A stretch of 64,000 nt of DNA from a virus, in IMG/VR virus record IMGVR_UViG_3300027759_000045, positions 282,857 to 346,856 of that record. One strand, 5' to 3'. A model generated the notes under the pieces. That model saw only the letters and a program-made list of their open reading frames with translations. It had not been told where the DNA came from and ran no database searches. Positions within the stretch are counted from its first letter, which is position 1. Each line of letters begins with the position of its first letter. The translations under genes were made by a program, and so were the position numbers. This document shows positions 7,052 to 58,718 of this stretch, piece by piece.

Positions 7052-7945
7052 ATGACACAAAAAATCTTGATTGACAAGTTAGAATTCTACATCACCAACG
7101 TGTGTAACTTAACTTGCAACGGCTGTAATCGCTACAACAATTATAAATTCAGCGGATGGCAAAGTTGGGCAGAAGCCGAACCTGTTCTCACTCGCTGGGC
7201 AGAAAAAATAGACATACGACATCCTGTAATCCTTGGTGGCGAGCCACTGCTTAATCCTGACATTGTTAAATGGATTAACGGTATTAGGCAATTGTGGCCC
7301 AAGCATTCGGGAGTTCAAGTGCAAAGCAACGGAACACGCATCGACTGCGTTAAAGGGTTAGATGAGGCTCTTAATCCTAAAGAGGGAAACTGGTTGGGCA
7401 TTAGTATACACAATCCCAATGACCGAGAAGAAATATTTGCTCGTGTACGAAACTTCTTAGGACCTACTGTAATAGAAACACAACGCAAAGATGATCCAAT
7501 TGGTAGCAATTATCAATTTATTAATGATAAAAAATTAACAATCCACGCCTGGATGAGCAACAAGTTTGTTCAAAGCAATATTATTGAACTTCCAGACAAC
7601 AAGTACACACTGTATCAGAGTGATCCTACACGGGCACACGAAAACTGTACCTTCCGTAGATTTAAAAACTATCACATGATCAATGGGAAAATCTACAAGT
7701 GCGGTCCAGCCGCTCTAATGCCCGAATTTGATGATCAATACCATTTTGAAATAAGCGATGAGGATCGTGCTATGCTACACAGCTATCGACCGTTGACCAT
7801 TGATGAGTTTGATCTACGTGGCAAAGAGTTTATTGACACGATTGATAACCAAATTGATCAATGCAAGTTTTGCCCAGAATCATACGAATACAAACCCATC
7901 ACATTCAGTGATCGTAAAAAACCCTGGATAAAAGAACCAAAATGA
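7052..7945 (+). CDS. Radical SAM protein with C-terminal Cys cluster
   Basis: 297 aa. C18-x3-C22-x2-C25 (NLTCNGC) is the radical SAM [4Fe-4S] motif, and GGEPLLNPD at about 68-76 is the glycine-rich SAM-binding strand. Later cysteines (YKCGP and CKFCPES near the end) could bind an auxiliary cluster. Members use SAM and an Fe-S cluster to start radical chemistry on peptides, sugars or RNA; the substrate here is unknown. It lacks the N-terminal Cys domain of the other radical SAM proteins in the window. IscU and IscA follow within 2 kb. Confidence 0.9.
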   Translation: MTQKILIDKLEFYITNVCNLTCNGCNRYNNYKFSGWQSWAEAEPVLTRWAEKIDIRHPVILGGEPLLNPDIVKWINGIRQLWPKHSGVQVQSNGTRIDCVKGLDEALNPKEGNWLGISIHNPNDREEIFARVRNFLGPTVIETQRKDDPIGSNYQFINDKKLTIHAWMSNKFVQSNIIELPDNKYTLYQSDPTRAHENCTFRRFKNYHMINGKIYKCGPAALMPEFDDQYHFEISDEDRAMLHSYRPLTIDEFDLRGKEFIDTIDNQIDQCKFCPESYEYKPITFSDRKKPWIKEPK

Positions 7946-10090: not shown

Positions 10091-11374
10091 ATGATTACCC
10101 AAACAATTGAATGGATTAAAAATAATCCTACATTTTGCACAGCACCATATTCTGCCTACGATTTTAGATTCAACGTTGGCAAATTTAAAGTTACTACGTG
10201 CTGTAATTTAGACGTGTCCAAGACCAACCAAGCACTGGATTTTAATTTTATAGAAAACGTCAAACAAGACATGTCACAAGGACTAGTGCCCAAGGCTTGT
10301 TGGCGTTGTGCGTCCGAAGAACAAAACCAAGCACAGTCTGAACGTGTAAAGTACATGCTAGGACACACCGTTGCTGAATTAGAACAGTTTAAGGAAAATA
10401 AAAAAACAAACGAATTTCAAGTTGGTATGAAGTTTAGCAATCTTTGCAACTTAGCTTGTCGTAGTTGTAACGAAACTGACAGTAGTTTATGGGCCAAATT
10501 AATGAATACGCCTGCGCCTCCTGAATATGAAATTGACACGTCAACAGACCAGTTTCTTTGGGATCAAATGACCAATATGATTCGTTCTAAACATAAAGAA
10601 ACTGATAATTTCATTGTACATCCAATTGGCGGAGAAACAATGATTCAACCAGGATTTTTAAAATTAGTTGATTGGTTGATTGAAGAAAATTTAGCCAACA
10701 CCACTACACTACGAATTACCACCAGTCTTGTGCCCAGTATATCTGAAAAGTTTTCTGCAAAATTTGCACAGTTTCGCCGCATAGAATTTCTTTCCAGCAT
10801 CGACAGCATTGGAGAAAATTATCATTACGTCCGTTGGCCTGCCAGGTTCAACAAAATAGAAGATAACCTGGAAACATTCAATCTGTTGAGTCGGCAATAT
10901 CCTGGCAAATTTTCCTTGTCGGTCAGCCCGGTATTTTCATTAAATAACATTTTTTATGCAGTGGACTATCTTGATTGGTGGAAACGCTGGGCCGACCAAA
11001 CACAAACTGATTTATGGATGTCAAACATACACTTGTATAATCCTGAGCCATTGATGGTGGAAAGTTTATCATTACAATACTACCCGCAACTGATTGAACT
11101 GTTAGAGCAATGTGTAAACCACACAGTATTTAAAAAATACACACGCACTGCTGTGCTGAAAGAATTCTTTGTTGCCATGCTTGCAACAATTTCTAATAAC
11201 AAAAACAACAACAACGAGTTGCGTTTTCAAGAGTACCTGAAGTTCACTGCAGATTATGATAATCGCACAACCACCGATAGCTACACCTTAAATTCTAAAC
11301 TGTTTGATTTACTGTCAGACTCCCATAAACATATATACAACTCTCATTTGCAACATGTACAATCCAAAATTTAA
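10091..11374 (+). CDS. Radical SAM protein with N-terminal twitch-like domain
   Basis: 427 aa. N-terminal Cys domain: FCTAPY (Cys16), CC37-38 and Cys70-x2-Cys73, probably one auxiliary Fe-S cluster. Radical SAM motif C119-x3-C123-x2-C126 (CNLACRSC) is followed by an IGGETMIQPG glycine strand. The order (auxiliary domain before the core) is opposite to classical SPASM/twitch enzymes and matches the family NCBI calls twitch domain-containing radical SAM. Substrate unknown. Overlaps the exonuclease gene by 20 nt. Confidence 0.9.
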   Translation: MITQTIEWIKNNPTFCTAPYSAYDFRFNVGKFKVTTCCNLDVSKTNQALDFNFIENVKQDMSQGLVPKACWRCASEEQNQAQSERVKYMLGHTVAELEQFKENKKTNEFQVGMKFSNLCNLACRSCNETDSSLWAKLMNTPAPPEYEIDTSTDQFLWDQMTNMIRSKHKETDNFIVHPIGGETMIQPGFLKLVDWLIEENLANTTTLRITTSLVPSISEKFSAKFAQFRRIEFLSSIDSIGENYHYVRWPARFNKIEDNLETFNLLSRQYPGKFSLSVSPVFSLNNIFYAVDYLDWWKRWADQTQTDLWMSNIHLYNPEPLMVESLSLQYYPQLIELLEQCVNHTVFKKYTRTAVLKEFFVAMLATISNNKNNNNELRFQEYLKFTADYDNRTTTDSYTLNSKLFDLLSDSHKHIYNSHLQHVQSKI

Positions 11375-33505: not shown

Positions 33506-34293
33506 CAATCAACCACAATGCGCTTGGGGTGATAAGTCGGAGTCCAGGTAGATGAATCTTCAACTCTGCCCCGGCAGTTGTTCACGTATCTAATGCCGTG
33601 CTGATGCTGGTCAATGGCATTATGATAGTGTCCAAAGCACCAAGTTTTAACTTTGTTTTCTGTATCGCCATCCAGTGCCATCTGCATAAGAGAATTTCCC
33701 ATTACATTAAACTTATAAGTTGACGTAATCTCCATGTCATAATTTATTAAATCTATGTTTGGCACAGTGTGTGTGACAAGAACAATTGATGTAACATCAG
33801 GATGTGTTTGAAGTTTTTTAATACTGTTTCTCAAGTAAGCAACATCGTTGTATGCCATGCTGTGTATAGCACTGGTAACAGGCATGCTGACATCCATGAC
33901 ATCGCAATACCATAATCTACACTGTTCATCATCAATGCTGGAATCTAGATCATATGTCCACCAGCCGTTGGTGCCAACAAATGCAACATTGTTAACAATC
34001 ACACAGTTGTCTTGTAGAAATACTACATTTTCTATTCCAGCAACAGCTTCTTGTAGTATGTTATAACTATCACTAAGTGAGTCTAAACTGTATCTATGTT
34101 CGTTGTTGCCGTCGATATAAAACACTGCTTGATAGCATTGACCAAGATGTTCTAATGTGTCTCGCACTATTTCAACATCCATGGAAATATCGCCGGCTAC
34201 GACACAGAATGGGCTGGTGGCTATTCCGGTCCAATCAAATGTGTCTGTGGGACCTAGGTGCAGGTCACTTATGAGATCAAATGTTAACGTCAC
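33502..34293 (-). CDS. Calcineurin-like metallophosphoesterase, 263 aa
   Basis: SDLHLG (about 9-14), VAGDIS, DGNNEH (a GNxE variant of GNHE), HTVP and a C-terminal FGHYHNA match motifs I to V of the metallophosphoesterase fold. Substrate unknown; phage members include nucleotide phosphatases. Its start codon lies inside the last codons of the homing endonuclease gene upstream. Confidence 0.88.
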   Translation of the reverse strand: MTLTFDLISDLHLGPTDTFDWTGIATSPFCVVAGDISMDVEIVRDTLEHLGQCYQAVFYIDGNNEHRYSLDSLSDSYNILQEAVAGIENVVFLQDNCVIVNNVAFVGTNGWWTYDLDSSIDDEQCRLWYCDVMDVSMPVTSAIHSMAYNDVAYLRNSIKKLQTHPDVTSIVLVTHTVPNIDLINYDMEITSTYKFNVMGNSLMQMALDGDTENKVKTWCFGHYHNAIDQHQHGIRYVNNCRGRVEDSSTWTPTYHPKRIVVDC

Positions 34294-34894
34294 GCTTTGT
34301 TCTCCTTGTTTTTTTAAATGTTGCTGACCGTAGTTTTTTTAATTTGGCTGCCTTCTCTGGTCCGTAAATTTCTTCGTATGTCTTGCCTTTGAGATGTTTT
34401 CTAGTGTTTTCACTTAGAAATTTTTTAGTCTCTTCTGAATGTGTTCGCCCCCACATACCGTTCTTTGATCCTGACATTGCTTTGCTATGATTTATCTTAG
34501 CCTCGTCACTGTGTAATTTACCAGTCATTATTTTAGAATGATTAATTTTCCATTCATCCGATTTTGACCGACCCTTCATTTTAGAGCTTACTATTTTCCT
34601 TGATTCTTCTCCCATAGCACCACCCGATCCGGATTCTTCTTTAAGATTAGCCCATGTTGGATCATTGACGATATTCCATAATTGACTGTAATATATTCCT
34701 TGATTTTTAATTTCTTCTTTATTATTACTTTCAAATAATATTTCGGTATGGACATTATCGCCGTGTTTTTTGAGATGCCTGCTCCAGTATTTTCCCGAAC
34801 CTTTGTATGTATAAGGGTCCTGAGAGGTGTACCCAAGATATTGTAATCCAGTTAGTAGGTGTGTTTTTTTGTACAGAGAAAGTTTATTCATCAT
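34277..34894 (-). CDS. GIY-YIG homing endonuclease with NUMOD3 motifs
   Basis: 205 aa. YLGYTSQDPYTYKGSGKYW is the GIY-YIG core of T4 Seg-type enzymes, and SGSKNGMWGRTHSEETKKF is a NUMOD3 DNA-binding motif; an earlier, weaker repeat precedes it. Free-standing mobile gene that cuts a related genome without it. TAAATA (34898-34903, minus strand) ends 3 nt before the first ATG. Its end overlaps the phosphoesterase start by 17 nt. Confidence 0.92.
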   Translation of the reverse strand: MMNKLSLYKKTHLLTGLQYLGYTSQDPYTYKGSGKYWSRHLKKHGDNVHTEILFESNNKEEIKNQGIYYSQLWNIVNDPTWANLKEESGSGGAMGEESRKIVSSKMKGRSKSDEWKINHSKIMTGKLHSDEAKINHSKAMSGSKNGMWGRTHSEETKKFLSENTRKHLKGKTYEEIYGPEKAAKLKKLRSATFKKTRRTKRDVNI

Positions 34895-35283: not shown

Positions 35284-36438
35284 ATGACAAAATCATGTGT
35301 ACTTGCCAGACATGGTATAAGTGTAGAAACAAATGGTACTTTGAGGCCATGTTGTCAGTTTCACGAATTACCTCAAGATGAGCACAAATTTTATACATTC
35401 CATGAATACTCACAGTGGCGAATAGAAATGGACAAGCTATCCAACGATCTTGATGCAGGCATAGAAGATCCTAGGTGTCACCAGTGCTGGCATGATGAAA
35501 ATATTGGATACCGCAGTTTGCGAACAATGTCTAATACCCGTCATCAAGATGCTGATAAAAAGAATACCAAAAAAAATCGAGCATTTTTTAATCGGCATAC
35601 CTCACCATGGCATGTGGAATTTAAATTGGGAAATTTTTGTAATCTTCGATGTATAATGTGTAGTCCTTACTCAAGTTCAAGTATCTGGACAGAATATATA
35701 AAAAACAAACCAAGTTACAACTCTGCTAATATTTATTGGGATCCTCCAACTGGAGAGCACAAGTGGTGGGAAAGCAACGACTTTACTGAGTTCTGTGGTA
35801 GAATTTTACCAACAGTCAGATTTTTACATTTCTCCGGTGGCGAGCCGTTTATGGTTCCGGGACTGGCCAACATGCTGAATCAAGTTACCGAACCAAAAAA
35901 CGTAGATTTGTTATTTGTAACAAACATGACCATGATTGATAACACTGTGTTAGAACTGATAAAACAATTCAAATCAGTGAATTTTGCAATCAGTCTCGAA
36001 GGCACGGACCAACACAACGATTACATACGGTACGGAAGCGATTTTACTGTGATTGAAAAGAACATAGACCGAGTAAGAAATCTAATACCAGGACAAACTC
36101 ATTTGATCGTTAACCATACATTCCAACATACCAGCATTTATTCTCTTCCTGCGTTAATAGATTGGTGTCACGATCAAAATTTTAATATACACTTTTCTCT
36201 TCATGGCGGCGAGGATTACATGAGAATAAATTCTGTACCACCTGCGGACATGGCCCGGTTTAAGGATCAAATTGAGCAGTCTTTGACGGTTGACCCTGAT
36301 GTTAAATCATATGCGCTTAATGTAATCAAAGACTACCAATATGATTCTGAATTAAATGCTAAATTTCGCCGATATACCAACATGATTGACGGTGTCAGAG
36401 GCAACAACTATAATTTAACATTTGACCCTACTAATTAG
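35284..36438 (+). CDS. Radical SAM protein with N-terminal twitch-like domain
   Basis: 384 aa. N-terminal cysteines: Cys5 (SCVLARHG), CC23-24 and Cys65-x2-Cys68. Core motif C119-x3-C123-x2-C126 (CNLRCIMC), the same positions as in the 10091 protein, then SGGEPFMVPG. Auxiliary domain precedes the core. Substrate unknown. Starts 3 nt after the upstream stop without a clear ribosome binding site. Confidence 0.9.
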   Translation: MTKSCVLARHGISVETNGTLRPCCQFHELPQDEHKFYTFHEYSQWRIEMDKLSNDLDAGIEDPRCHQCWHDENIGYRSLRTMSNTRHQDADKKNTKKNRAFFNRHTSPWHVEFKLGNFCNLRCIMCSPYSSSSIWTEYIKNKPSYNSANIYWDPPTGEHKWWESNDFTEFCGRILPTVRFLHFSGGEPFMVPGLANMLNQVTEPKNVDLLFVTNMTMIDNTVLELIKQFKSVNFAISLEGTDQHNDYIRYGSDFTVIEKNIDRVRNLIPGQTHLIVNHTFQHTSIYSLPALIDWCHDQNFNIHFSLHGGEDYMRINSVPPADMARFKDQIEQSLTVDPDVKSYALNVIKDYQYDSELNAKFRRYTNMIDGVRGNNYNLTFDPTN

Positions 36439-36492: not shown

Positions 36493-36975
36493 TTAAGATC
36501 GAACTATCATAGCAAAACTGAAAAGCACAACAGGGACAGATATTGCCATGAAACTTATGCCTATAAGTACTCTGTCTATCATGTCGGCCTGTGCTTGAAT
36601 TTTAGCATTTTTAATGTCTGCTTGTAGTTTGGCACGTTCTTTGTACATACGCACACGCTCAGCCATCATCTCATCCCAGACGTCTTTGTTGCCTGACCAT
36701 ATTAACATTTCTTTCAATTCTTTTTCAGCATCACGTAGAGCCTTACTCTGCATGGCAATTTGAATTGACATTGCCCTGATCTGTCCGTCAGTGAGAATAT
36801 TTTTGCTGGTTTGTGCTTTTATGTTTGCTTCATGGATGGTATCACTATTTTCAAAGAACTTGGCAAACTGTCCGTAAAGACTGTTAATATCTTTACCCAG
36901 GGCAATGGCTTTTTTAATATAACCAACTGATTGTTGAGCGGCTGTAAATGCCAGACCAAGGGTGATAGGATCCAT
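36493..36975 (-). CDS. Helical protein with C-terminal membrane segment, 160 aa
   Basis: Starts MDPITLGLAFTAAQQSVGYIKK, long helical middle with a predicted coiled coil, and a hydrophobic C-terminus (GISFMAISVPVVLFSFAMIV). I recall similar proteins in T4-like phages next to coiled-coil membrane genes. The start overlaps the stop of the small gene upstream (TAATG). Function unknown. Confidence 0.75.
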   Translation of the reverse strand: MDPITLGLAFTAAQQSVGYIKKAIALGKDINSLYGQFAKFFENSDTIHEANIKAQTSKNILTDGQIRAMSIQIAMQSKALRDAEKELKEMLIWSGNKDVWDEMMAERVRMYKERAKLQADIKNAKIQAQADMIDRVLIGISFMAISVPVVLFSFAMIVRS

Positions 36976-37127
36976 TATTTTTTCTTGGGCTCCTTGTCTT
37001 TAGGAGGAGGCTTGGACCATTCTAAACATACAACTACTCGGTTATAAACATCTCCTGACCAGGTCCATCTTACACATCTAGGCTCTTGGGCTAAAATGTA
37101 CAAGGATAACATGGTCGCGCCGATCAT
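36975..37127 (-). CDS. Small Trp/Pro/Lys protein, 50 aa
   Basis: Start at 37127, 1 nt after the previous stop, chosen over a longer frame inside the upstream gene. A hydrophobic start (MIGATMLSLYILA) could be a membrane anchor, and the end is KPPPKDKEPKKK. Function unknown. Confidence 0.6.
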   Translation of the reverse strand: MIGATMLSLYILAQEPRCVRWTWSGDVYNRVVVCLEWSKPPPKDKEPKKK

Positions 37128-37128
37128 A

Positions 37129-37716
37129 TCACTTGTTGGCCAATGGATTATCAATGGCCTTTTGTATTTTGCTATCAACTTCTTTCTTTAACTGTACAAC
37201 TTCACGTTCAATTTCTCTACGTGCATCGGCCATTTCTCTACGAATAACACTGGCTTCGTTACGTGCCTTTTCTAAGTCCTCACGCACTGCCTTGCGCATG
37301 TCACGCATTTCTGCTTCAGTTTCACGCTGTGCTGTTTTAACACTGCGTTCTACCTGCTCAGTTACTGATTCGTTACGACGTAGATCATTCTTCAAGTCTG
37401 TTTTGATATCACGAGTGTAGTCCGAGGTCTTGGCTGAGTTTTCTTCTATGACTGCTAGGCGTTTGTCAAAGCCACTTAGGTCTGGTGCGGCATATTCAGC
37501 AATCTTTTTCTTCATGCCTACGTAGTCCTTGTACACTTCAAACGTGCCATACAGTCCGCCTAATATACTGCTGACAATAGTGGCGGCTACCATGAGTTTG
37601 GCAGGTGTGAACTCATAACCACCAATTGAGATCACAGTATCTTTTGAGGCATACTTCTTTGCAGCCGCCTCAAGTTCGTCAACCTTGGCATCAACGCTTT
37701 TAATTTCTTCAGTCAT
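37129..37716 (-). CDS. Membrane-anchored coiled-coil protein, 195 aa
   Basis: Start at 37716 follows AGGAG. A short N-terminal helix, one membrane segment (about 38-56, AATIVSSILGGLYG) and a long, highly charged coiled coil to the end. Conserved, uncharacterised type in T4-like phages as I recall. Part of a co-directional minus-strand cluster. Confidence 0.8.
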   Translation of the reverse strand: MTEEIKSVDAKVDELEAAAKKYASKDTVISIGGYEFTPAKLMVAATIVSSILGGLYGTFEVYKDYVGMKKKIAEYAAPDLSGFDKRLAVIEENSAKTSDYTRDIKTDLKNDLRRNESVTEQVERSVKTAQRETEAEMRDMRKAVREDLEKARNEASVIRREMADARREIEREVVQLKKEVDSKIQKAIDNPLANK

Positions 37717-37718
37717 TT

Positions 37719-37880
37719 TTAAGCTCCTATTTTTATTCTTGTGGATACCATTCTTATCCATTCTTTTTTGGCTTCTAGATTGTCTCGGGCATTCTGCACT
37801 CGTGTACTATTTTTTGTTATGATGCTGGATGTTGATAATCCTAGACCAATCCCTATAATTACATAAACAATGTATTCCAT
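37719..37880 (-). CDS. Small membrane protein, 53 aa
   Basis: MEYIVYVIIGIGLGLSTSSI... one N-terminal membrane segment and a basic, charged tail. AGGAGAAC lies before the ATG, and the TAA stop is followed within 3 nt by the next ATG. Function unknown; good translation signals support it. Confidence 0.7.
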   Translation of the reverse strand: MEYIVYVIIGIGLGLSTSSIITKNSTRVQNARDNLEAKKEWIRMVSTRIKIGA

Positions 37881-37890
37881 GTTGTTCTCC

Positions 37891-40122
37891 TTATTTGTAC
37901 TGCAAGTCTATCAACTGTTGGTGAAGTCTATCGCTACCCAGTCCGCGTAACAATCTTGCATTGTCAACATTGACTTGATTCCGGTATATTTCTCTTGGTG
38001 CATAAAATGCCACATCCGGCATGGCTGTTGAATATGATTGATAACCTGCCGGCTGTGTGGCCATTCTGGTCAAATCAACTCCGCCGGCCAGTTCATTTGA
38101 CTGCACATTTTTGTTTACTGAGTCTGTGCGCTGTTCTTGTGTGCCAGCACTTGGTAACACAGAACGTTGTTCCATGGCATCATTTAGTACAGAACGGCCG
38201 CCAATTTTGATACCTTCAATCTGTGGTGTTTCTAGTTCCGGTTGTGTGTTGTTGCGCCCTGGCGCTGATTGCAAACTGTACATATCAAACTGACCCGGCA
38301 TCATGCTTGATGACAAAGACATATTGGGATCAGCAAATACACTTGATGTTACTGGGCGTAGACCACCAATTGTGACCACAGTGGTCGATGCTACGCTGGC
38401 TACATTTACCATGGACATTTGTGATTGACTGCTAGATACCACTAATCCTGTGCCTGTGCTGGCCTGTGTCATGCTACCAGCAATGCTTTGAGCAGTAAGT
38501 GCGCCGGCCACATTCTCTGCTTGTTGTTGTGCTTGTTGCGCATCTTTGGCAGCGGCTGTTTCTGCGGCCTGTACAACAGACTTTGCTTCGTTGCCTATTC
38601 TAGCTTGATTGCTACTAATCATGCTCATAACACTGCCTAGACTTGGCGCTGACTTGCTGTTGCTATCGCTGGCTGTTTTAACTTCACCTGCTCGAGGTTG
38701 ACTACTACCACCCTGTGGAGGAGGTTGATTTGCTGGTGTGCTATTTGTATTGCTAGAAGCCGGAGGTGGTGCACCTTGAGGCGGGGGAGGGCTACCAGGA
38801 GGAGGTTCTGAACCTGGAGGAGGTGGACTGCCTGGTGGTGGGGGAGGGCTACCAGGAGGAGGCGCTGGCTGTGCGGGATCATTCACTGACATTCCCGTAG
38901 TTGGATCCATTGTTGTGATCTGTGTACCATCTGTAGTTGGTGTGCTTGCTGGCGCCAATTGTTTGGCTATAGCTAATGCGTATCCTTTACAATCAGGGCT
39001 GTATAAAGGATTAGCTAGACAAGGGTCAGCTGTGTAAATCATTGTTGCCCAGGCACCTTCTATAGACGAACCGGTGCCAGATGCTGACCCTACAATTCTA
39101 CCTGTGCCTAACAATGATTGATTCATGCTTGATGGCAACAAGTACTTTTCACTTACTGATCCACTGGTACCGTCACCTGTGAAACTATAACTCTTTGAAT
39201 GTATAGATTGGTTACTACTGTTAGTCAACGAAAAAGATGCATTAGCATACGCAGGTACGTTCATATACCACGAACACGATCCGTCTTGGTTGGTAGCAGT
39301 ACATCCGTACCAACTTTGTCCAACTCTCCAGTTAAACCCGTAATTAAATCCGTGTATCCTTGCACCAACGCCAGCACTTTCCAGTGCGGTATTAATTGCA
39401 AATGCTTGATTTAGACTTGAACCTCCCTTGGTTGAATCTAATAAATTATTAGTGTTAATAATGTTACCAAAGCCAGCACAAGTTGAACTATAAGCAGGAT
39501 TGTTAGCACAAGGATCAATTGAGTACTTTAATTTAGCATACACATCGGTAACCACTGGTCCATACAAACCAGCCCAGCCCCCTGAGTCAACACCTGAGAA
39601 TGAAATGTTTAATTTGTTAAGTCCGGTAAGTGAGTACGGTGTTGCAAAGTTAACATTTTGATTTTCTTGTTGCCATGCATATACCCATGTGTTATAATTA
39701 AAATTCTGAGAATATACATTAGTACCAGCAGAGTTAGTTAAACTAACATTGGCACTTAATTGGTCAACTATGCCATTTGAATCAAAGCAAGATTGTTCCC
39801 CGCCTATTTTGTTCTTACACCAGTTGGCATATCGCCATCCATATTGTAGTCCACTAACAATAATACCGGTGCCAGTCAAGGCTTGATTGACTGCAATTGA
39901 TTGTGATACTGTGCCAGCTTGCCAACTAAATTGATACCCGTCACTGCCGCCAGCGCCAAACATTCCAGCGGTGCCGTTTCCAGTTGTAGTCCATCCAGTG
40001 GAGCCATTGGTAAATCCTGGATTGGTAATTAAATTACCGCTGACGTAATCCTGTGCGTTAGAATAACTTGTGGACAAGAACGCCAAGGATAGCGCCAATG
40101 CCAACTTTCTTATAAGTGTCAT
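37891..40122 (-). CDS. Large exported surface-type protein, 743 aa
   Basis: Sec signal peptide (LALALSLAFLSTSYSNAQ). Beta-rich N-terminal half with ITNPGFTNGSTGW and two DPC-x2-NP-x-YS-x2-C repeats (around 203 and 367). A Pro/Gly low-complexity linker spans about 410-460 and an Ala/Gln helical C-terminal part follows. Not a known lysis protein; it looks like an adhesin or envelope protein made in the infected cell. Its gene overlaps the next one upstream by 65 nt. Confidence 0.8.
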   Translation of the reverse strand: MTLIRKLALALSLAFLSTSYSNAQDYVSGNLITNPGFTNGSTGWTTTGNGTAGMFGAGGSDGYQFSWQAGTVSQSIAVNQALTGTGIIVSGLQYGWRYANWCKNKIGGEQSCFDSNGIVDQLSANVSLTNSAGTNVYSQNFNYNTWVYAWQQENQNVNFATPYSLTGLNKLNISFSGVDSGGWAGLYGPVVTDVYAKLKYSIDPCANNPAYSSTCAGFGNIINTNNLLDSTKGGSSLNQAFAINTALESAGVGARIHGFNYGFNWRVGQSWYGCTATNQDGSCSWYMNVPAYANASFSLTNSSNQSIHSKSYSFTGDGTSGSVSEKYLLPSSMNQSLLGTGRIVGSASGTGSSIEGAWATMIYTADPCLANPLYSPDCKGYALAIAKQLAPASTPTTDGTQITTMDPTTGMSVNDPAQPAPPPGSPPPPPGSPPPPGSEPPPGSPPPPQGAPPPASSNTNSTPANQPPPQGGSSQPRAGEVKTASDSNSKSAPSLGSVMSMISSNQARIGNEAKSVVQAAETAAAKDAQQAQQQAENVAGALTAQSIAGSMTQASTGTGLVVSSSQSQMSMVNVASVASTTVVTIGGLRPVTSSVFADPNMSLSSSMMPGQFDMYSLQSAPGRNNTQPELETPQIEGIKIGGRSVLNDAMEQRSVLPSAGTQEQRTDSVNKNVQSNELAGGVDLTRMATQPAGYQSYSTAMPDVAFYAPREIYRNQVNVDNARLLRGLGSDRLHQQLIDLQYK

Positions 40123-41179
40123 CTAGTTTTGCCTCGTCAATCTTTGGAATCCGGTCTGGATTTGCTTCCCAACTTGCTTTTGCTTGTTCACCAATCTTGC
40201 CTTCGTATGGGCAAGGTGTGCCAGCTGCCAACATGGCATCAAACACACGACGGTCTTGACACATGGTAGCAACTGCCGCTACCTTCATGCCCATGTCATA
40301 TAGAGTTTTACTTAACTTCAAGCGTTCGCAATTCATGTCACGTACTGTTCCACCTGAACTTACGCCAAACACTTGTGTCTGCACAGATCCCGAACTGCCA
40401 GTTGAACATAAGTCAGCATTGCCACCACTCAGCATAGCAGGAGCAACCGCAGTTGGCGGAGGTTGAATGATTCGTTGTGTAATCTCACTGGTGTTAATAT
40501 TACGATTGGTCATATCACCAGTCTGCATGTTTTGATTAACTGCTGTACTTTGATTAACGTTATTGTTAACATTGTTGCTGGTGCTGGTCGACGTGTTGAT
40601 ATTACGATTGGTCATATCACCAGTATTAACGTTGTTGTTGGTGGCTGTGCTGGTGTTAACGTTGTTGTTATTGTTGGTGGCTGTGCTGACATTGTTGTTG
40701 TTGTAGGTCATTGTGCCACTATTAATATTATTGTTGGTGTTTACATTGGTAGCAGTACTGGCGTTGACATTGTTGTTGTTATAAGTCATTGTGCCTGAGT
40801 TGACATTGTTATTGTTGTAGGTCATTGAACCTGAATTAACGTTGTTGTTGTTAATGGTACTTGTGCCAGAGTTAATATTGTTATTGGTATTGACACTGGT
40901 GTTAGCATTGGTATTGTTACTGGTACTGTTGACCGCGGCTGTGCTAGTGCTGTTGCTATTACTAGTAGTATTGCTGTTGGAAGTAACGGTGCTGGTACTA
41001 TTGCTGGTACTATTAGTGTCAACCAGGCTCTTAGAGTCGTAGGTACCTTGATTGATCAGTGTGCTTGTGCCTGTGGTCGTTCCACCGGTTGTGCCAGACG
41101 TAGTGGTTGTTTGTGCTGTTGCCGTTGCTGATACTACTAAAACAAGCCAGGCTACGCCCCTGAATAGTCTCTGTTTCAT
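40058..41179 (-). CDS. Exported Asn/Thr/Ser-repeat protein, 373 aa
   Basis: Signal peptide (GVAWLVLVVSATATAQ) then about 200 residues of NNNNVNSGTMTY-type repeats that resemble beta-solenoid or amyloid-like surface proteins. A C-terminal domain has four Cys (DMNCERL, MCQDRR, TPCPYEG). The C-terminal domain resembles the envelope-associated end of other phage-encoded exported proteins in no specific family. Overlaps the 743-aa gene; both follow a palindrome-fused late promoter. Confidence 0.8.
   Translation of the reverse strand: MKQRLFRGVAWLVLVVSATATAQTTTTSGTTGGTTTGTSTLINQGTYDSKSLVDTNSTSNSTSTVTSNSNTTSNSNSTSTAAVNSTSNNTNANTSVNTNNNINSGTSTINNNNVNSGSMTYNNNNVNSGTMTYNNNNVNASTATNVNTNNNINSGTMTYNNNNVSTATNNNNNVNTSTATNNNVNTGDMTNRNINTSTSTSNNVNNNVNQSTAVNQNMQTGDMTNRNINTSEITQRIIQPPPTAVAPAMLSGGNADLCSTGSSGSVQTQVFGVSSGGTVRDMNCERLKLSKTLYDMGMKVAAVATMCQDRRVFDAMLAAGTPCPYEGKIGEQAKASWEANPDRIPKIDEAKLDDTYKKVGIGAILGVLVHKLF
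40490..41050 (-). repeat. Asn/Thr coding repeat array
   Basis: Degenerate repeats (GTTGTTGTTG-like on the plus strand) that code NNNNVNSGTMTY units. Units vary in length, so recombination is likely. Confidence 0.8.
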
Positions 41180-41210
41180 GCTATCACCTTTATAGTTATT
41201 ATTATCTTGA

Positions 41211-41230
41211 TATTTATTGCGTTAGAGCAA
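41211..41230 (-). promoter_or_regulatory. Palindrome-linked late promoter, variant
   Basis: Minus strand TTGCTCTAACGCAATAAATA: TTGC/GCAA arms joined to TAAATA. Same design as 21171-21190 and 50449-50468 but with a longer loop and no CA before the box. Serves the exported 373-aa gene. Confidence 0.5.
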
Positions 41231-45896: not shown

Positions 45897-46166
45897 TTAC
45901 TCAACCACAATGTCAACGTTGACATCTGGGTATAGATCGATCCAACAAGATAGTACTAAATTTTTATAGGCTTCTGCAGTAGCGTTATCGACCCAGGCCC
46001 AGCGGTTGACACACCTAACCCCTGTGCTAGGATTGTTTGTAAACTCAAGTTCTCCGGTGTATTTTCCTTCAGCTTGCCAGGCAGCGCATTGATTCATAAT
46101 ATTATCATGCTGTGGCTGTAAGTGAAACGGTGTAGTTTGGGTAAGTGTAAGGATGGTTTTAATCAT
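45897..46166 (-). CDS. Small protein, tandem copy A, 89 aa
   Basis: Starts MIKTILTLTQTTPF, then NIMNQCAAWQAEGKYTGEL and WAWVDNATAEAYKNL. Highly similar along its whole length to the gene at 46193-46459 (copy B), which lies 296 bp upstream. Function unknown. Confidence 0.75.
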   Translation of the reverse strand: MIKTILTLTQTTPFHLQPQHDNIMNQCAAWQAEGKYTGELEFTNNPSTGVRCVNRWAWVDNATAEAYKNLVLSCWIDLYPDVNVDIVVE

Positions 46167-46192: not shown

Positions 46193-46459
46193 TTACTCAA
46201 CCACAATGTCAACGTTGATATCTGGGTATAGATCGATCCAACTAGCCAGTACTAAATTTTTATAGGCTTCTGCAGTAGCGTTATCGACCCAGGCCCAGCG
46301 TTCAACACGTCTAACTCCTGTAACAGTATTGTGTGTGATGTCAAGTTCTCCGGTGTATTTTCCTTCGGTTTGCCAGGTAGCGCATTGGTTCATAATATTA
46401 TCCATTTGTGGCTGTGGAAATGGTGCAGTGTGGGTAATTGTAAGGATGGTTTTAATCAT
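46193..46459 (-). CDS. Small protein, tandem copy B, 88 aa
   Basis: Paralogue of the 45897-46166 gene with about four fifths of residues the same by eye, differing mainly in 1-30 and at HNTVTG. Together with copy A it makes a tandem pair. Function unknown. Confidence 0.75.
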   Translation of the reverse strand: MIKTILTITHTAPFPQPQMDNIMNQCATWQTEGKYTGELDITHNTVTGVRRVERWAWVDNATAEAYKNLVLASWIDLYPDINVDIVVE

Positions 46460-50873: not shown

Positions 50874-50948
50874 ATGAACTGGATTTTTCTTGGGTGTAAA
50901 CAAACCATATCGGTTAACCGGAAAAAGACACAAAAGGTATCGAAATGA
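50874..50948 (+). CDS. Candidate leader peptide, 24 aa
   Basis: MNWIFLGCKQTISVNRKKTQKVSK, starting 6 nt after TATAAT (leaderless) and ending in an ATGA overlap with the lipoprotein start. It could couple or regulate lipoprotein translation. Supported only by its placement. Confidence 0.4.
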   Translation: MNWIFLGCKQTISVNRKKTQKVSK

Positions 50949-51637
50949 AAAGTCGTATTTTATCTGCCACAGCCGTAGCAGTGCTGGTAACATTGGCTGG
51001 ATGCAGTTCCAATCCGCTGAGCCAAAATAGTAGCATTGCACCCGGGTCCAATGCCACTGCTCCTATTAGCGAACAAACTGCCACTAGCGACTTTACTCGC
51101 CAAGGTGTCACGATCAAGTATAGTCTGTGGTCTGGTGCTGTTGAGAGCATTGAGGTCATTGGCTACGCACCTGTCTGGGGCAACAGCCAAAACGCACTGC
51201 GTGAATCGTTCCGTGTGGCTGAACTTGAAGCTAAGAAAAGTCTCAATGACTTTATCAATAAAGAGAACATCACAAGTCGTACATCTGTGCGCATGATCAG
51301 TAGCAACCTGGAACAGGCCAACGACAACAAGAAAAACAACTTTACCACCAATGTTGTTAAATCTACAGATGACACAGACGTTGCGGCCGACCTAAATCCG
51401 CAAAAGAATAGTGGTACCTCTTCCAAAGAAGATAACACTGCTGTTCGTAATGATGCGTTAAGAATTGCCAGCAGAGTCAACAATGTCATCACCACACAGA
51501 ATGCTGGCATCCTGTCGGGCTTGTATCTGGTCAAGGGTGAAGTGATCAACAGTGGTAAAAACGTTAAGGTGGTGTATCGTTGGGACAAAAAATCCAACGC
51601 AGTGCGCCCAGTGGTACGTGGCCTGATGATGCAGTAA
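50945..51637 (+). CDS. Lipoprotein, 230 aa
   Basis: Signal peptide with lipobox (LAGCSSN; Cys20). A conserved-type GVTIKYSLWSGAVESIEVIGYAP domain and an Asn/Lys-rich linker follow. Exported to the envelope and possibly paired with the next protein, which starts 1 nt after. AAGG serves as ribosome binding site. No known family; the partner resembles FlgT N-terminal domains. Confidence 0.8.
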   Translation: MKSRILSATAVAVLVTLAGCSSNPLSQNSSIAPGSNATAPISEQTATSDFTRQGVTIKYSLWSGAVESIEVIGYAPVWGNSQNALRESFRVAELEAKKSLNDFINKENITSRTSVRMISSNLEQANDNKKNNFTTNVVKSTDDTDVAADLNPQKNSGTSSKEDNTAVRNDALRIASRVNNVITTQNAGILSGLYLVKGEVINSGKNVKVVYRWDKKSNAVRPVVRGLMMQ

Positions 51638-51638
51638 C

Positions 51639-52709
51639 ATGTTAAGGCGTTTACTGGTTGCAGTCAGTGCTGTTGTGGTCGTGACTGCCGCACACAGCGT
51701 TACTATTGCCGATGTTATTCGCAGTCCTATTGGAAATGGAATAACTGTGGCTCGTTGGATCTACGAAGCTGCCAACTCTGAAAAGGTCTTGTATGTGGAA
51801 GTTATCAGTGAAGGCAACACTTTTGAGCAAGCCAAACAACAAGGTTTTAGATTGGCAGTAGAACATGCAGTTGGAACAGTTGTGTCTTCTGAAACAGAAG
51901 TGCGCAATGACCGGCAGACACGGGATGAAATCATCACCTATGCATCGGGCTACGTAGATCGATTTGAAGTGGTTGAACAGCAAAGAGTAGGTAACCGAGT
52001 TCTTGTTAATATGAAGGTTTGGGTCCGGCCTAGCAAAATTGCCAACCGTTTGTTAAATAAATCTGCCACAGCAGGCACAGTGGAAGGTGGACGCATCAGT
52101 ACACAAATACAAACGCTACAGCATGAAAGGACGTCCGGTGATAGGTTGCTTAAATCTGTACTAGCTGACTATCCCAAACGAGCGTTTGTGATTGAAATGG
52201 ATAAAACACAGGTCATGTTTGATGCTAACCGTACTGGACAATTAGAAGTTGCGTTTTGGTTATCATGGAGTAAAGAGTACCTTGAAAGCATTGCAGAAGC
52301 ACTCTCCGCAATAAACCAACGCTCGGACTGTGGCGGCCTATTTGGATGCAGAAATGTTGCATCTCAGATTGATGTGATACGCCCAGGATTCGGATCAACT
52401 ACCCAAACTTGGTTCAACGATAAAGTTGCCGATCAAATGGTGCGTAAAGAGATGATCCAAAGCCAGCCCACTATCCGTATTGCCATTGTGGACACTGCAG
52501 GAAAAGAGCAATTTAAACAGTGTTTTTATGCTAAAGAATTGGACTACCGCGATCATTCTGCTTGGTACTATGTAAATCAGGATCATGACCGAGTGGCAAT
52601 TAATGGCAAAGCAGTCAAAAGATTCAACACTTTTATTGATCTCAGCCGGTTGCCCACAGCCAATTTAGACCAGATTAAAATAGCCATGGTTCGCGGTCCA
52701 AATTGTTAA
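51639..52709 (+). CDS. Exported protein with FlgT-N-like domain, 356 aa
   Basis: Signal peptide (LLVAVSAVVVVTAAHS). Residues about 50-140 (FEQAKQQGFRLAVEHAVG, DEIITYASGYVDRFEVVEQQ, VLVNMKVWV) resemble the first domain of FlgT/LPP20-type envelope proteins. The rest includes a disulfide-like pair (CGGLFGC). Probably acts in the envelope with the lipoprotein upstream. Fold call is tentative. Confidence 0.65.
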   Translation: MLRRLLVAVSAVVVVTAAHSVTIADVIRSPIGNGITVARWIYEAANSEKVLYVEVISEGNTFEQAKQQGFRLAVEHAVGTVVSSETEVRNDRQTRDEIITYASGYVDRFEVVEQQRVGNRVLVNMKVWVRPSKIANRLLNKSATAGTVEGGRISTQIQTLQHERTSGDRLLKSVLADYPKRAFVIEMDKTQVMFDANRTGQLEVAFWLSWSKEYLESIAEALSAINQRSDCGGLFGCRNVASQIDVIRPGFGSTTQTWFNDKVADQMVRKEMIQSQPTIRIAIVDTAGKEQFKQCFYAKELDYRDHSAWYYVNQDHDRVAINGKAVKRFNTFIDLSRLPTANLDQIKIAMVRGPNC

Positions 52710-54862: not shown

Positions 54863-56137
54863 ATGAAACAAAGTAATTTATACTGTATTTTGGCCGACAA
54901 AGGACTGGGCTTGCACAATTCTGGCCGAACGTATCTGTGCTGCCACAGTAGAAAATACCTAGAAGATGCACAGGGTGAACAGATATATCTAGACACCCAC
55001 ACGTTAGAACAGGCGTGGACCAGCCCTACACGCAGAGAAATACAAGAATCTTTGGAAAACAATCAAGAGCATGCTAGTTGCCAGGCCTGCTGGGACGATG
55101 AACACGCCGGCAAAAAGTCACGCAGACAGTGGCACAACGGTATGAATCATCCTGTGACTGACCGTGATGATCAGCCGCAAATACTAGATTTAAAAATGGG
55201 CAACACCTGCAACATGAAATGCAGAACCTGTAACCCAGAAGTGTCCAGTCAATGGTATCGAGAAGATTGGGAATTGGCAGCACAGCCTGCAGAAGGCGTT
55301 TCATATTCCGAGTATCTCAAACGCTGGCGCAGAATTCCTGCCAGTTATAGTGACAACAATCAAGACCTTTGGAACACCATGAGCAAGTGGGTGCCCAACA
55401 CAGTGTACATTGACTATTACGGTGCAGAGCCCATGCTGATCAAAAAGAACTTTGATGTGTTACAGACCGCAGTGGATCAAGGCACAGCAAAAAACATAGA
55501 CTTGCATTTTAGCACCAATGGCACTGTTTGGAATGATGAGTTAGAAAACTTATTAAAACAATTTAAACAAGTTTACTTTGATTTGAGCATCGATGACATT
55601 GAAGATAGGTGTGGATATATTCGCTATTCTAGTACCTGGGATCTGGTGGCCAGCAATCTTGAACGATTCCTACAGGCACAACGCACAAACAAAAACTTTC
55701 AATTTGGCGTGTGTATCACTGTCAACAGTTTGAATGTGTATTACCTGGATGAGATATTTGATTTCTTTGCAAAGAAAGGACTAGGCTGCAACTTCAACAT
55801 GTTGCACTTGCCATATCAACTGTGCGTGAAAAGTTTGCCTGATGCTGTTAAAACCGCAATCACTGATAAATTGTCAAAGTATGTGACGGGAGATGATATT
55901 GGGCCGTGGCACCAACGCTACTGGAAAGACCATTGTGAAATTGTGTTGAACTTTTTGAATACGCCAATGGAAGGACAACAGCATCACTTCCGGGAATTTC
56001 ATCGCTATACTCGCGGACTTGATCTCAGTCGTGACCAAACATTTGAAACAGCCTTACCTGAATTTGCAGAGTTAATCAAGCCGTGGTTTGCACCGCTTGA
56101 TCAGTTGCTTGTGGTTGATTCTCCAGTTTCAAAGTGA
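54863..56137 (+). CDS. Radical SAM protein with N-terminal twitch-like domain
   Basis: 424 aa. N-terminal Cys8, CC26-27 and Cys73-x2-Cys76. Core motif C116-x3-C120-x2-C123 (CNMKCRTC). DYYGAEPMLIKKN replaces the usual GGEP by YGAEP. Auxiliary domain precedes the core. A TAAATC box lies 5 nt before the ATG. Overlaps the convergent oxygenase-like gene by 62 nt. Confidence 0.88.
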   Translation: MKQSNLYCILADKGLGLHNSGRTYLCCHSRKYLEDAQGEQIYLDTHTLEQAWTSPTRREIQESLENNQEHASCQACWDDEHAGKKSRRQWHNGMNHPVTDRDDQPQILDLKMGNTCNMKCRTCNPEVSSQWYREDWELAAQPAEGVSYSEYLKRWRRIPASYSDNNQDLWNTMSKWVPNTVYIDYYGAEPMLIKKNFDVLQTAVDQGTAKNIDLHFSTNGTVWNDELENLLKQFKQVYFDLSIDDIEDRCGYIRYSSTWDLVASNLERFLQAQRTNKNFQFGVCITVNSLNVYYLDEIFDFFAKKGLGCNFNMLHLPYQLCVKSLPDAVKTAITDKLSKYVTGDDIGPWHQRYWKDHCEIVLNFLNTPMEGQQHHFREFHRYTRGLDLSRDQTFETALPEFAELIKPWFAPLDQLLVVDSPVSK

Positions 56138-56796: not shown

Positions 56797-57420
56797 ATGC
56801 CTAATTTAGTACCTATTGTTCTAGAACAAACTGCCAAAGGCGAACGTTCATATGACATCTACAGTCGACTGCTACGTGACCGTGTGATCATGCTGGACAC
56901 AGAAGTCAGCGAACATTCAGCCAGTTTAATTGTGGCACAGATGCTGTTCTTGGAAAGCGAAAATCCTGACAAGGATATCTCATTGTACATCAATTCACCT
57001 GGCGGTGCTGTCACAGCCGGCCTGGCCATTTACGATACCATGCAGTTTATCAAATGCGATGTACAGACCATTGTGCTGGGCCAGGCTGCAAGTATGGGAT
57101 CCATGTTGGCACAAGCAGGTGCCGCAGGTAAACGTATGGTGCTACCCGAAGCACGTACAATGATACACCGTGTGAGTTCTGGCACACCGGGCACACGTGG
57201 TTCAGTTCATGTGCAGGATCTGCAGTTCGAAGATTCAAAACGTGCGTTTGAAGAAAGTGTACGAATAAATAAACGTCTTACCGAGCTGTACGTCAAGCAC
57301 AACACCGCCAGCAAGACCTATGAAGAACTGTATGAAACTATGAAGTTTGATACATTCTTAAGCGCACAGCAAGCAGTTGATTTTGGACTTGCTGATAAAA
57401 TTATTGAAAAACGAGTTTAA
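56797..57420 (+). CDS. clpP: ClpP protease subunit B, 207 aa
   Basis: Ser99 (GQAASMGS), His124 (TMIHRVSS) and Asp185 (KFDTFLSA), with SPGGAVTAG substrate-binding strand, make a complete triad. The His-Asp spacing is about 12 residues longer than in E. coli ClpP, from an inserted [12 protein letters not shown]-like loop that I also recall in cyanophage ClpPs. AAGGAAA ribosome binding site. Partner of ClpX in this phage. Confidence 0.96.
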
Positions 57421-58718
57421 TGAGTTTCGAGCAAACATTCTGCGCTAGTCCGTGGTTGCATATGAGGATCACTAACTCTGGCACCTACGAACCCTGCAGA
57501 TGGATGGCTCACACCAACAGCACTCGAGTCAGCATTGATCGCAGTATACAAACAGTATCTCCGTTAACATACTTTCAACAGCACATGGCTCCGTTGCGAG
57601 CAGAATTACTCGAAGGCAACGCACCGGCAATGTGCAATGACTGCTTGGTTATGGAACAGCATGGCAAGCCAAGTGGGCGTCAGCGACAGTTGCTCAAGGT
57701 TGGAATACAAGACGAGTATTTTGAAAAAAGACTGGCCAGTTCTCCGTTAAAGACTGCATTTGATTACAGCAACAATAATGCCGGCCATACCGACCGCACA
57801 GTAACAGACTGGCAAATAGACCTGGGTAATTACTGCAATGGTGCTTGTGTGTTTTGTAATCCGGAGAGTTCAAGCAGTTTAGCCACGGAATTTAAAAAGC
57901 TAGGCTTGATTGAACAAGCGCCGACATCTGCCTGGTGTGACGATCCTGTGTTGTTGGAAAAGTTTATCAACGACCTGTCTCAAACTCCTAATCTACACTA
58001 CTTACACTTCCTTGGCGGCGAAACAGTGATCACTCCAGGATTTAAAAAGATACTGGCAGCATTGATTACCTCCGGTCTAGCAAAACAAATAACAATTGGC
58101 TTTACCACTAATCTCACTGTGTGGTCTGACTCAGTGGTTGAACTATTAATGCAGTTTCACCAAGTCAATCTGGGAATGAGCATAGAAACACTAACGCCTG
58201 TTAATGACTATGTAAGATACCCCAGCCAAATTGGATTGGTACAGCAGACATTGGATCGTTGGGTACAACTAGGACAGAAACAAAATTGGTTAATGCAGTT
58301 ACGCATTACTCCTACGTGTCTAACTGTACACGAATTACACACTGTGTATGATTATGCTTGGCAGAATATGATTGCTGTTGAAAGTTGTAACTTTATCAAT
58401 CGTCCAGAAGTAATGCGCATTGGTGTATTGCCAAAATATCAACGTGATCAAGCTGTACACGTTTTGAAAACTTGGATTGATCAACATCCAATTGCTGACC
58501 ATGCACAGATTATCAACACACGAGATCCAAACATTGCTAGAGAACAAATTATTCAAGACGCCACAAGTTATTTGACCTATCTCGAATCAGCTGTAGATGA
58601 AAGCGCAAGACTACCGGACCTGATTGCGTATCTTAAAAGATTAGAAGGCAATCGTGGCAATAGCATTTTAACTTATATTCCTCAATATGAAAACCTATTC
58701 AGATCTGCAGGATATTGA
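57420..58718 (+). CDS. Radical SAM protein with N-terminal twitch-like domain
   Basis: 432 aa. N-terminal FCASPW (Cys8), PC26, Cys72-x2-Cys75. Core C139-x3-C143-x2-C146 (CNGACVFC), then LGGETVITPG. Starts in a TAATG overlap with the clpP subunit B stop, so probably co-translated, a notable coupling. Substrate unknown. Confidence 0.9.
   Translation: MSFEQTFCASPWLHMRITNSGTYEPCRWMAHTNSTRVSIDRSIQTVSPLTYFQQHMAPLRAELLEGNAPAMCNDCLVMEQHGKPSGRQRQLLKVGIQDEYFEKRLASSPLKTAFDYSNNNAGHTDRTVTDWQIDLGNYCNGACVFCNPESSSSLATEFKKLGLIEQAPTSAWCDDPVLLEKFINDLSQTPNLHYLHFLGGETVITPGFKKILAALITSGLAKQITIGFTTNLTVWSDSVVELLMQFHQVNLGMSIETLTPVNDYVRYPSQIGLVQQTLDRWVQLGQKQNWLMQLRITPTCLTVHELHTVYDYAWQNMIAVESCNFINRPEVMRIGVLPKYQRDQAVHVLKTWIDQHPIADHAQIINTRDPNIAREQIIQDATSYLTYLESAVDESARLPDLIAYLKRLEGNRGNSILTYIPQYENLFRSAGY

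Follow-up and report, generated by a model that had tools for sequence, protein, structure and literature searches.

The 64,000-nucleotide stretch analysed here (the window) comprises bases 282857-346856 of the virus record IMGVR_UViG_3300027759_000045, which at 346,856 bp represents a jumbo phage. On its minus strand the window carries a trio of genes, P1, P2 and P3, that is an undescribed phage module. Our best guess, offered tentatively, is that the three products form a late trans-envelope complex that would help to breach the outer membrane. The phage also encodes a ribonucleotide reductase, a DUF6267 protein and a tail-spike-like protein and carries ATAAATA motifs, a content that fits membership of a T4-like lineage. 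The genes of the trio are:

40058-41179, minus strand: P1, 373 amino acids (aa), with a signal peptide, N/T/S-rich repeats, a four-cysteine C-terminal domain and a hydrophobic tail.
37891-40122, minus strand: P2, 743 aa, exported, with a signal peptide; modelled with AlphaFold.
37129-37716, minus strand: P3, 195 aa, with one predicted membrane helix, a coiled coil and the C-terminus NPLANK; the open reading frame (ORF) opens at 37761, and homologues begin at 37716.

A first-pass annotation of the window had described two large exported proteins of 743 and 373 aa with overlapping genes. Both ORFs, and an overlap of exactly 65 nt, were confirmed on the minus strand, and the end of the stretch that it delimited (41230) takes in the promoter region upstream of P1. 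That description held up but covered only the first two genes, or two-thirds, of a conserved module; it missed P3, together with the double coding in the overlap, the predicted carbohydrate-binding-module (CBM)-like head of P2 and the lysis-gene neighbours present in many relatives. The signal peptides that it had called clear are kept among homologues: a crude rule for type I signal peptides identified one in 135 of 140 P1 homologues and 111 of 115 P2 homologues, compared with 114 of 1000 other ORFs. Scans of Pfam, NCBIfam and PHROG yielded no function for P1, P2 or P3.

Conservation of the trio was assessed from both ends. At 100 loci collected from P1, mostly from IMG/VR, P2 was the next gene in 93, and the two genes overlapped by 65 nt in 36; P3 then followed in 86. 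When loci were instead anchored on P3, P2 lay within four genes upstream in 55 of the 60 with enough sequence and P1 in 50. All 138 distinct full-length P3 proteins end in NPL.

The module is common in the phages of lakes and seas, yet nearly invisible in databases: a scan of IMG/VR returned at least 574 confirmed relatives of P1, and the window P1 was matched by 11 of 50,697 phage records. The trio with an NPL-ending P3 is present in the cultured pelagiphages HTVC023P, HTVC033P, HTVC202P, HTVC115P, Baldr and Mosig, and in the uncultured T7-like phage MedDCM-S28-C10. The roseophages CRP-207 and CRP-810 have it too, but their second protein is more diverged. Only 12 P1 hits came from 84,980 genomes of bacteria and archaea, all in contigs of metagenome-assembled genomes that look phage-derived, most with module genes adjoining P1. 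At this search sensitivity the P1 family appears to be restricted to viruses.

P2 consists of a signal peptide, two beta-sandwich domains, a proline-rich linker, a helix (residues 495-551 in the model), a disordered stretch and a conserved C-terminus, with the following principal parts:

39025-40050, minus strand: P2 head, tandem beta-sandwich domains (residues 25-205 and 206-366), each ending in DPCxxNPxYSxxC.
38713-38880, minus strand: proline-rich linker (residues about 415-470), identified from the sequence; model confidence is low here.
37894-38070, minus strand: conserved C-terminal domain (residues 685-743), homologous across P2 proteins.

The proline-rich linker was as first annotated. 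The motif reported as a repeat is also present, but its spacing is DPC-x2-NP-x-YS-x2-C rather than DPC-x-NP, and it occurs in two copies only, one closing each beta-sandwich domain. Most blocks of the modelled head reach an AlphaFold confidence (pLDDT) of 80-97, with some loops lower. The best fold match in the PDB, found with Foldseek, was the tandem CBM22 structure 4xup (E 3e-7, probability 1.00), followed by FBS, CBM61 and CBM16 sugar-binding jelly rolls; disorder over most of P2 keeps the whole-query TM-scores low. A tandem CBM-like fold is thus predicted for the window P2 head. The likeness of the head to CBM22, CBM16 and CBM61 is at fold level only, in the tandem beta-sandwich jelly rolls seen in 4xup; it differs in that the identity is 9-16%, there is no Pfam match and no enzyme is attached.

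Many tail fibre and minor tail proteins are also among the Foldseek matches of the head, and in some small marine phages the module comes after small genes near the structural region. Both observations would suit a P2 that resembles CBM-bearing phage tail proteins and is added to particles. We consider such a virion role very improbable, as the fold held in common is a jelly roll of generic sugar-binding type and the conserved Sec-type signal peptides of P1 and P2 would route both proteins out of the cytoplasm, the site of virion assembly.

Comparison of 140 distinct P2 proteins placed the C-terminal 70 residues of 137 in a single homologous group, whereas the N-terminal halves fell into two unrelated clusters (103 and 33 proteins) and singletons. 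To judge from these sequences, P2 is a constant C-terminus with exchangeable heads. Heads of this kind are what a host-varying target would be expected to select over a constant P2 C-terminus and P1, and they bear on a close rival reading, only somewhat less probable than a role in lysis and likewise tentative: receptor masking or superinfection exclusion, in which the exported head would cover the host's lipopolysaccharide (LPS), capsule or receptor glycan while P1 and P3 anchor it. Other phages, or the phage's own progeny on cell debris, would then be blocked from adsorbing. Masking accounts for the variable heads better than a role in lysis does, and the genome of the window phage includes tail-spike-like and UDP-sugar genes as well. 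Against this, no lipobox or other outer-membrane signal and no pore across the outer membrane (no CsgG) were found, the promoter motif described below is late, while exclusion proteins are usually early, and the frequent lysis-gene neighbourhood is unexplained unless the protection of progeny is intended. A precedent exists in T5 Llp, an exported phage protein that blocks a receptor (PMC9586334). The trio is like Llp-type exclusion lipoproteins in being exported by a phage to the envelope and possibly blocking adsorption, but unlike them it has no lipobox, comprises three genes with a late-type promoter and includes a CBM-like head. Should masking prove correct, phages would possess in this module a late exclusion system that is widespread and whose heads are matched to the host.

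Beyond its signal peptide, P1 is divided into a repeat region and a conserved domain:

40475-41107, minus strand: N-rich repeat region (residues 25-235), with periods of 12 and 10.
40160-40462, minus strand: conserved cysteine domain (residues 240-340), in which C258, C284, C307 and C323 are invariant.

The repeat region comprises about 210 residues of N/T/S-rich repeats (31% N, 23% T). Autocorrelation against composition shuffles gave periodicities of 12 (z 9.7) and 10 (z 7.6), and Tandem Repeats Finder detected a 36-nt tandem repeat in the DNA. The periodicity claimed for P1 in the first-pass annotation is therefore real, but its assignment to an amyloid or solenoid type gained no support: AlphaFold gave no confident fold for the repeats (pLDDT about 30-44), confidence too low to retain a beta-solenoid, and CsgG (PF03783) was not found in the 346,856-bp record with a search that detected its controls. 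P1 has no curlin repeats by Pfam and, lacking a CsgG or curlin match, was ruled out as a curli subunit.

The length of P1 varies with the presence of other genes. At about 30 loci three extra exported genes, designated PIL, CHP and GVY, lie between P2 and P3 (for example L165:4706-5989), always together and in the same order. P1 at these loci is without the N-rich region in 32 of 32 cases and measures 174-226 aa, compared with a median of 379 aa elsewhere. PIL and CHP recall a pilin and its chaperone by eye only; single-sequence and profile searches of Pfam and the PDB gave no pilin or PapD-type chaperone match, and these identifications were dropped.

Such features raise the prospect that the P1 repeats, or PIL, CHP and GVY, polymerise outside the cell into a surface fibre or adhesin and so clump cells together ('sibling capture'), which we regard as improbable. 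The P1 repeats are periodic and N/T-rich, and the N-rich region never occurs alongside the PIL-CHP-GVY genes (0 of 32 loci), as if the two were alternatives. Curli-type modules are moreover known from pelagiphages (PMC7029224, PMC9599517). These phage curli, or type VIII secretion, modules (of pelagimyophages and of the HTVC023P type) resemble the trio in encoding exported repeat proteins in aquatic phages. They differ in that no CsgG or curlin repeat was found with the trio, which occurs without them, and in that P1 and P2 match no curli family. The fibre explanation is further weakened by the absence of CsgG from the window phage genome, by the failure of P1, PIL and CHP to match any curlin, pilin or PapD-type entry of Pfam or the PDB, by some homologues, pelagiphage ones included, that are without the long repeats, and by the Melnitz study, in which no clumping was seen with phage CsgGF (PMC9004378).

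The cysteine domain of P1 is common to pelagiphages and roseophages. In a sampled alignment its mean pairwise identity was 79%, compared with only 40% for the first domain of P2, and residues 301-350 are helical in the model (pLDDT 76-90). The C-terminal domain matches PHROG_20531, a family without an assigned function, with E values of 4e-9 for the window P1 and 4.7e-12 for the short P1 of locus L165.

The 3' end of P1 and the 5' end of P2 are read in two frames:

40058-40122, minus strand: 65-nt double-coding overlap, encoding the P1 hydrophobic tail DTYKKVGIGAILGVLVHKLF and the P2 signal peptide MTLIRKLALALSLAFLSTSYSNA.

Across loci the overlap is 62-77 nt long, being 65 nt in 23 of 45 non-redundant loci, and the relative frame of P1 and P2 was identical in all 158 overlaps. 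When the P2 signal peptide was recoded synonymously, the native P1 tail exceeded the median of the recodings in hydrophobicity at 38 of the 45 loci (p 1.6e-6, a rough guide only, since the loci are related). The P1 frame stays open in about 36% of synonymous recodings, and at loci without an overlap P1 has no hydrophobic tail. Both the tail and the signal peptide look selected within the overlap, and a conserved double coding of this kind is unusual in its own right.

Late production of the proteins, as first proposed, was supported by a motif upstream of P1. ATAAATA is the core of the T4 late promoter.

41211-41217, minus strand: ATAAATA, a T4-type late-promoter-like motif, 31 nt before the P1 start.

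The motif precedes P1 at 47 of 113 non-redundant loci, compared with 9.2 in dinucleotide shuffles (maximum 18 among 100 shuffles), and is not enriched before P2 (1 of 95) or P3 (4 of 117). This distribution indicates that P1, P2 and P3 are probably transcribed as one late operon. A pelagiphage transcriptome study covered HTVC022P and HTVC027P (PMC12753301), neither of which was among the P1 or P2 matches, and a literature search for expression data or a virion proteome from a carrier phage found none. Elsewhere in the window, ATAAATA also lies 26 nt before the upstream copy of a tandemly duplicated small gene (45897-46166 and 46193-46459, minus strand; 88-89 aa).

Lysis genes adjoin the module in many relatives. 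Of the 89 loci for which 9 kb or more of context was available, 20 have a GH19 endolysin within 6 kb, and in 16 of these it lies directly upstream of P1 (within 100 nt). The phrog_181 profile detects GH19, where PF00182 returned neither it nor the controls. The usual order at the adjoining loci is Rz-like i-spanin, o-spanin, GH19, P1, P2. Downstream of P3 at one locus of a small marine phage come two membrane proteins and then a PF00959 lysozyme, and in ctXG6705 (MW202481), where the P3 gene was not identified, the module lies about 1 kb before a lysozyme. HTVC023P has an M15 peptidase three genes after P2, and HTVC033P an amidase four genes before P1. In MedDCM-S28-C10 the trio is flanked by tail-fibre genes on one side and the large terminase on the other, the position that the holin and Rz/Rz1 genes occupy in T7. 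CRP-207 gp73 and CRP-810 gp51 were at first taken for endolysins adjoining the module and then dropped, their sequences being coiled-coil P3 homologues that end in NPL; the GenBank label of lysozyme for both (L234:3292-3873 and L004:7261-7683) is probably a misannotation.

The architecture is read most simply as a base that stays constant while heads and spacers are exchanged. In the proposed trans-envelope complex, P1 and P3 would together make up a base attached to the membrane, the P2 C-terminus would dock onto it, the linkers would span the periplasm, and the P2 head would grip an envelope glycan, either peptidoglycan or LPS. At the end of infection the complex would help to breach the outer envelope, or to time its breach, working with holin and endolysin. 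It would act alongside Rz/Rz1 in large phages such as the window phage and perhaps replace them in small phages without a spanin lipoprotein.

Several observations weigh against a role in breaching the outer membrane. An Rz-like i-spanin/o-spanin pair and GH19 are encoded at 42.9-44.8 kb of the window phage genome, at a distance of 279 kb from the module, and spanins directly adjoin the module in many relatives. Phages so equipped do not require the trio as a spanin, and for the window phage that role was rejected on account of its Rz-like homologues. No GH19 was found within 6 kb at 69 of the 89 loci. The window P1, P2 and P3 have no lipobox, a lipobox scan of the window returning other ORFs only. 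The charge bias of P3 under the positive-inside rule disagrees between subfamilies, favouring a C-in orientation in 122 of 139 environmental P3 proteins and C-out in six of nine from named phages, which leaves its topology ambiguous. Finally, the exchange of P2 heads is easier to understand if they bind something that differs between hosts, such as LPS, than if they bind peptidoglycan.

Comparison with spanins of the Rz/Rz1 and T1 gp11 types (PMC6139136) shows several points of likeness: envelope proteins made late (apparently so for the trio), overlapping genes, an endolysin close by at a number of loci, and a coiled-coil partner with a membrane helix, for which P3 would be the candidate. Unlike spanins, the trio has no lipoprotein, is much larger, comprises three genes with a large CBM-like head on P2, and coexists with real Rz-like spanins in the window genome and many relatives. 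It may work like a spanin or an exclusion protein but on present evidence is a member of neither family; its likely roles are of known kinds, those of late phage envelope modules, and the proteins themselves are undescribed.

After failing to find a spanin in 91 of the 677 phages that it covered, a survey asked whether another route through the outer membrane exists (PMC6139136). HTVC202P, MedDCM-S28-C10 and ctXG6705, all trio-bearing and with genomes recorded as complete, gave no lipobox ORF in a strict scan that detected the o-spanins of L165 and the window phage, and a relaxed scan returned only spurious antisense ORFs. With three such small genomes lacking a recognisable spanin lipoprotein, the module makes the question of another route testable. 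The stronger proposal, that the trio is a lipoprotein-free trans-envelope apparatus with a P1/P3 base and an exchangeable glycan-binding P2 head that provides spanin-less aquatic phages with a third outer-membrane route besides two-component and unimolecular spanins, is in our estimation unlikely.

Three further genes of the window accompany the trio as optional members:

37719-37880, minus strand: small membrane protein of 53 aa with a single helix, encoded between P2 and P3; comparable small ORFs occur in this position at other loci.
36975-37127, minus strand: P4, a small exported two-cysteine protein with a likely ATG start at 37127; its +3 cluster is present in 26 loci.
36493-36975, minus strand: P5, with a C-terminal membrane helix, matching phrog_32327 (function unassigned; E 1.5e-4) and present in 42 loci.

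Other genes were recorded in passing. A gene for an exported eukaryotic-type (alpha) carbonic anhydrase (PF00194, E 1.6e-15; L225:5834-6859, about 44.8-45.9 kb in the window phage genome) sits directly after that phage's GH19 endolysin; a gene for a DUF4337 membrane protein comes next. Another exported pair in the window consists of a lipobox lipoprotein (50945-51637, plus strand) followed by a 356-aa exported protein (51639-52709, plus strand); by eye it recalls LPP20/FlgP-like and FlgT-like envelope proteins, with no Pfam or PHROG match. A homing-endonuclease-like gene with a NUMOD3 motif (34277-34894, minus strand; phrog_314) overlaps a metallophosphoesterase gene. Radical-SAM-like proteins with CxxxCNLxC-type motifs are encoded at 7052-7945, 10091-11374, 35284-36438, 54863-56137 and 57420-58718 (plus strand), among which Pfam confirms only 35284-36438 (PF04055, E 1.7e-12).

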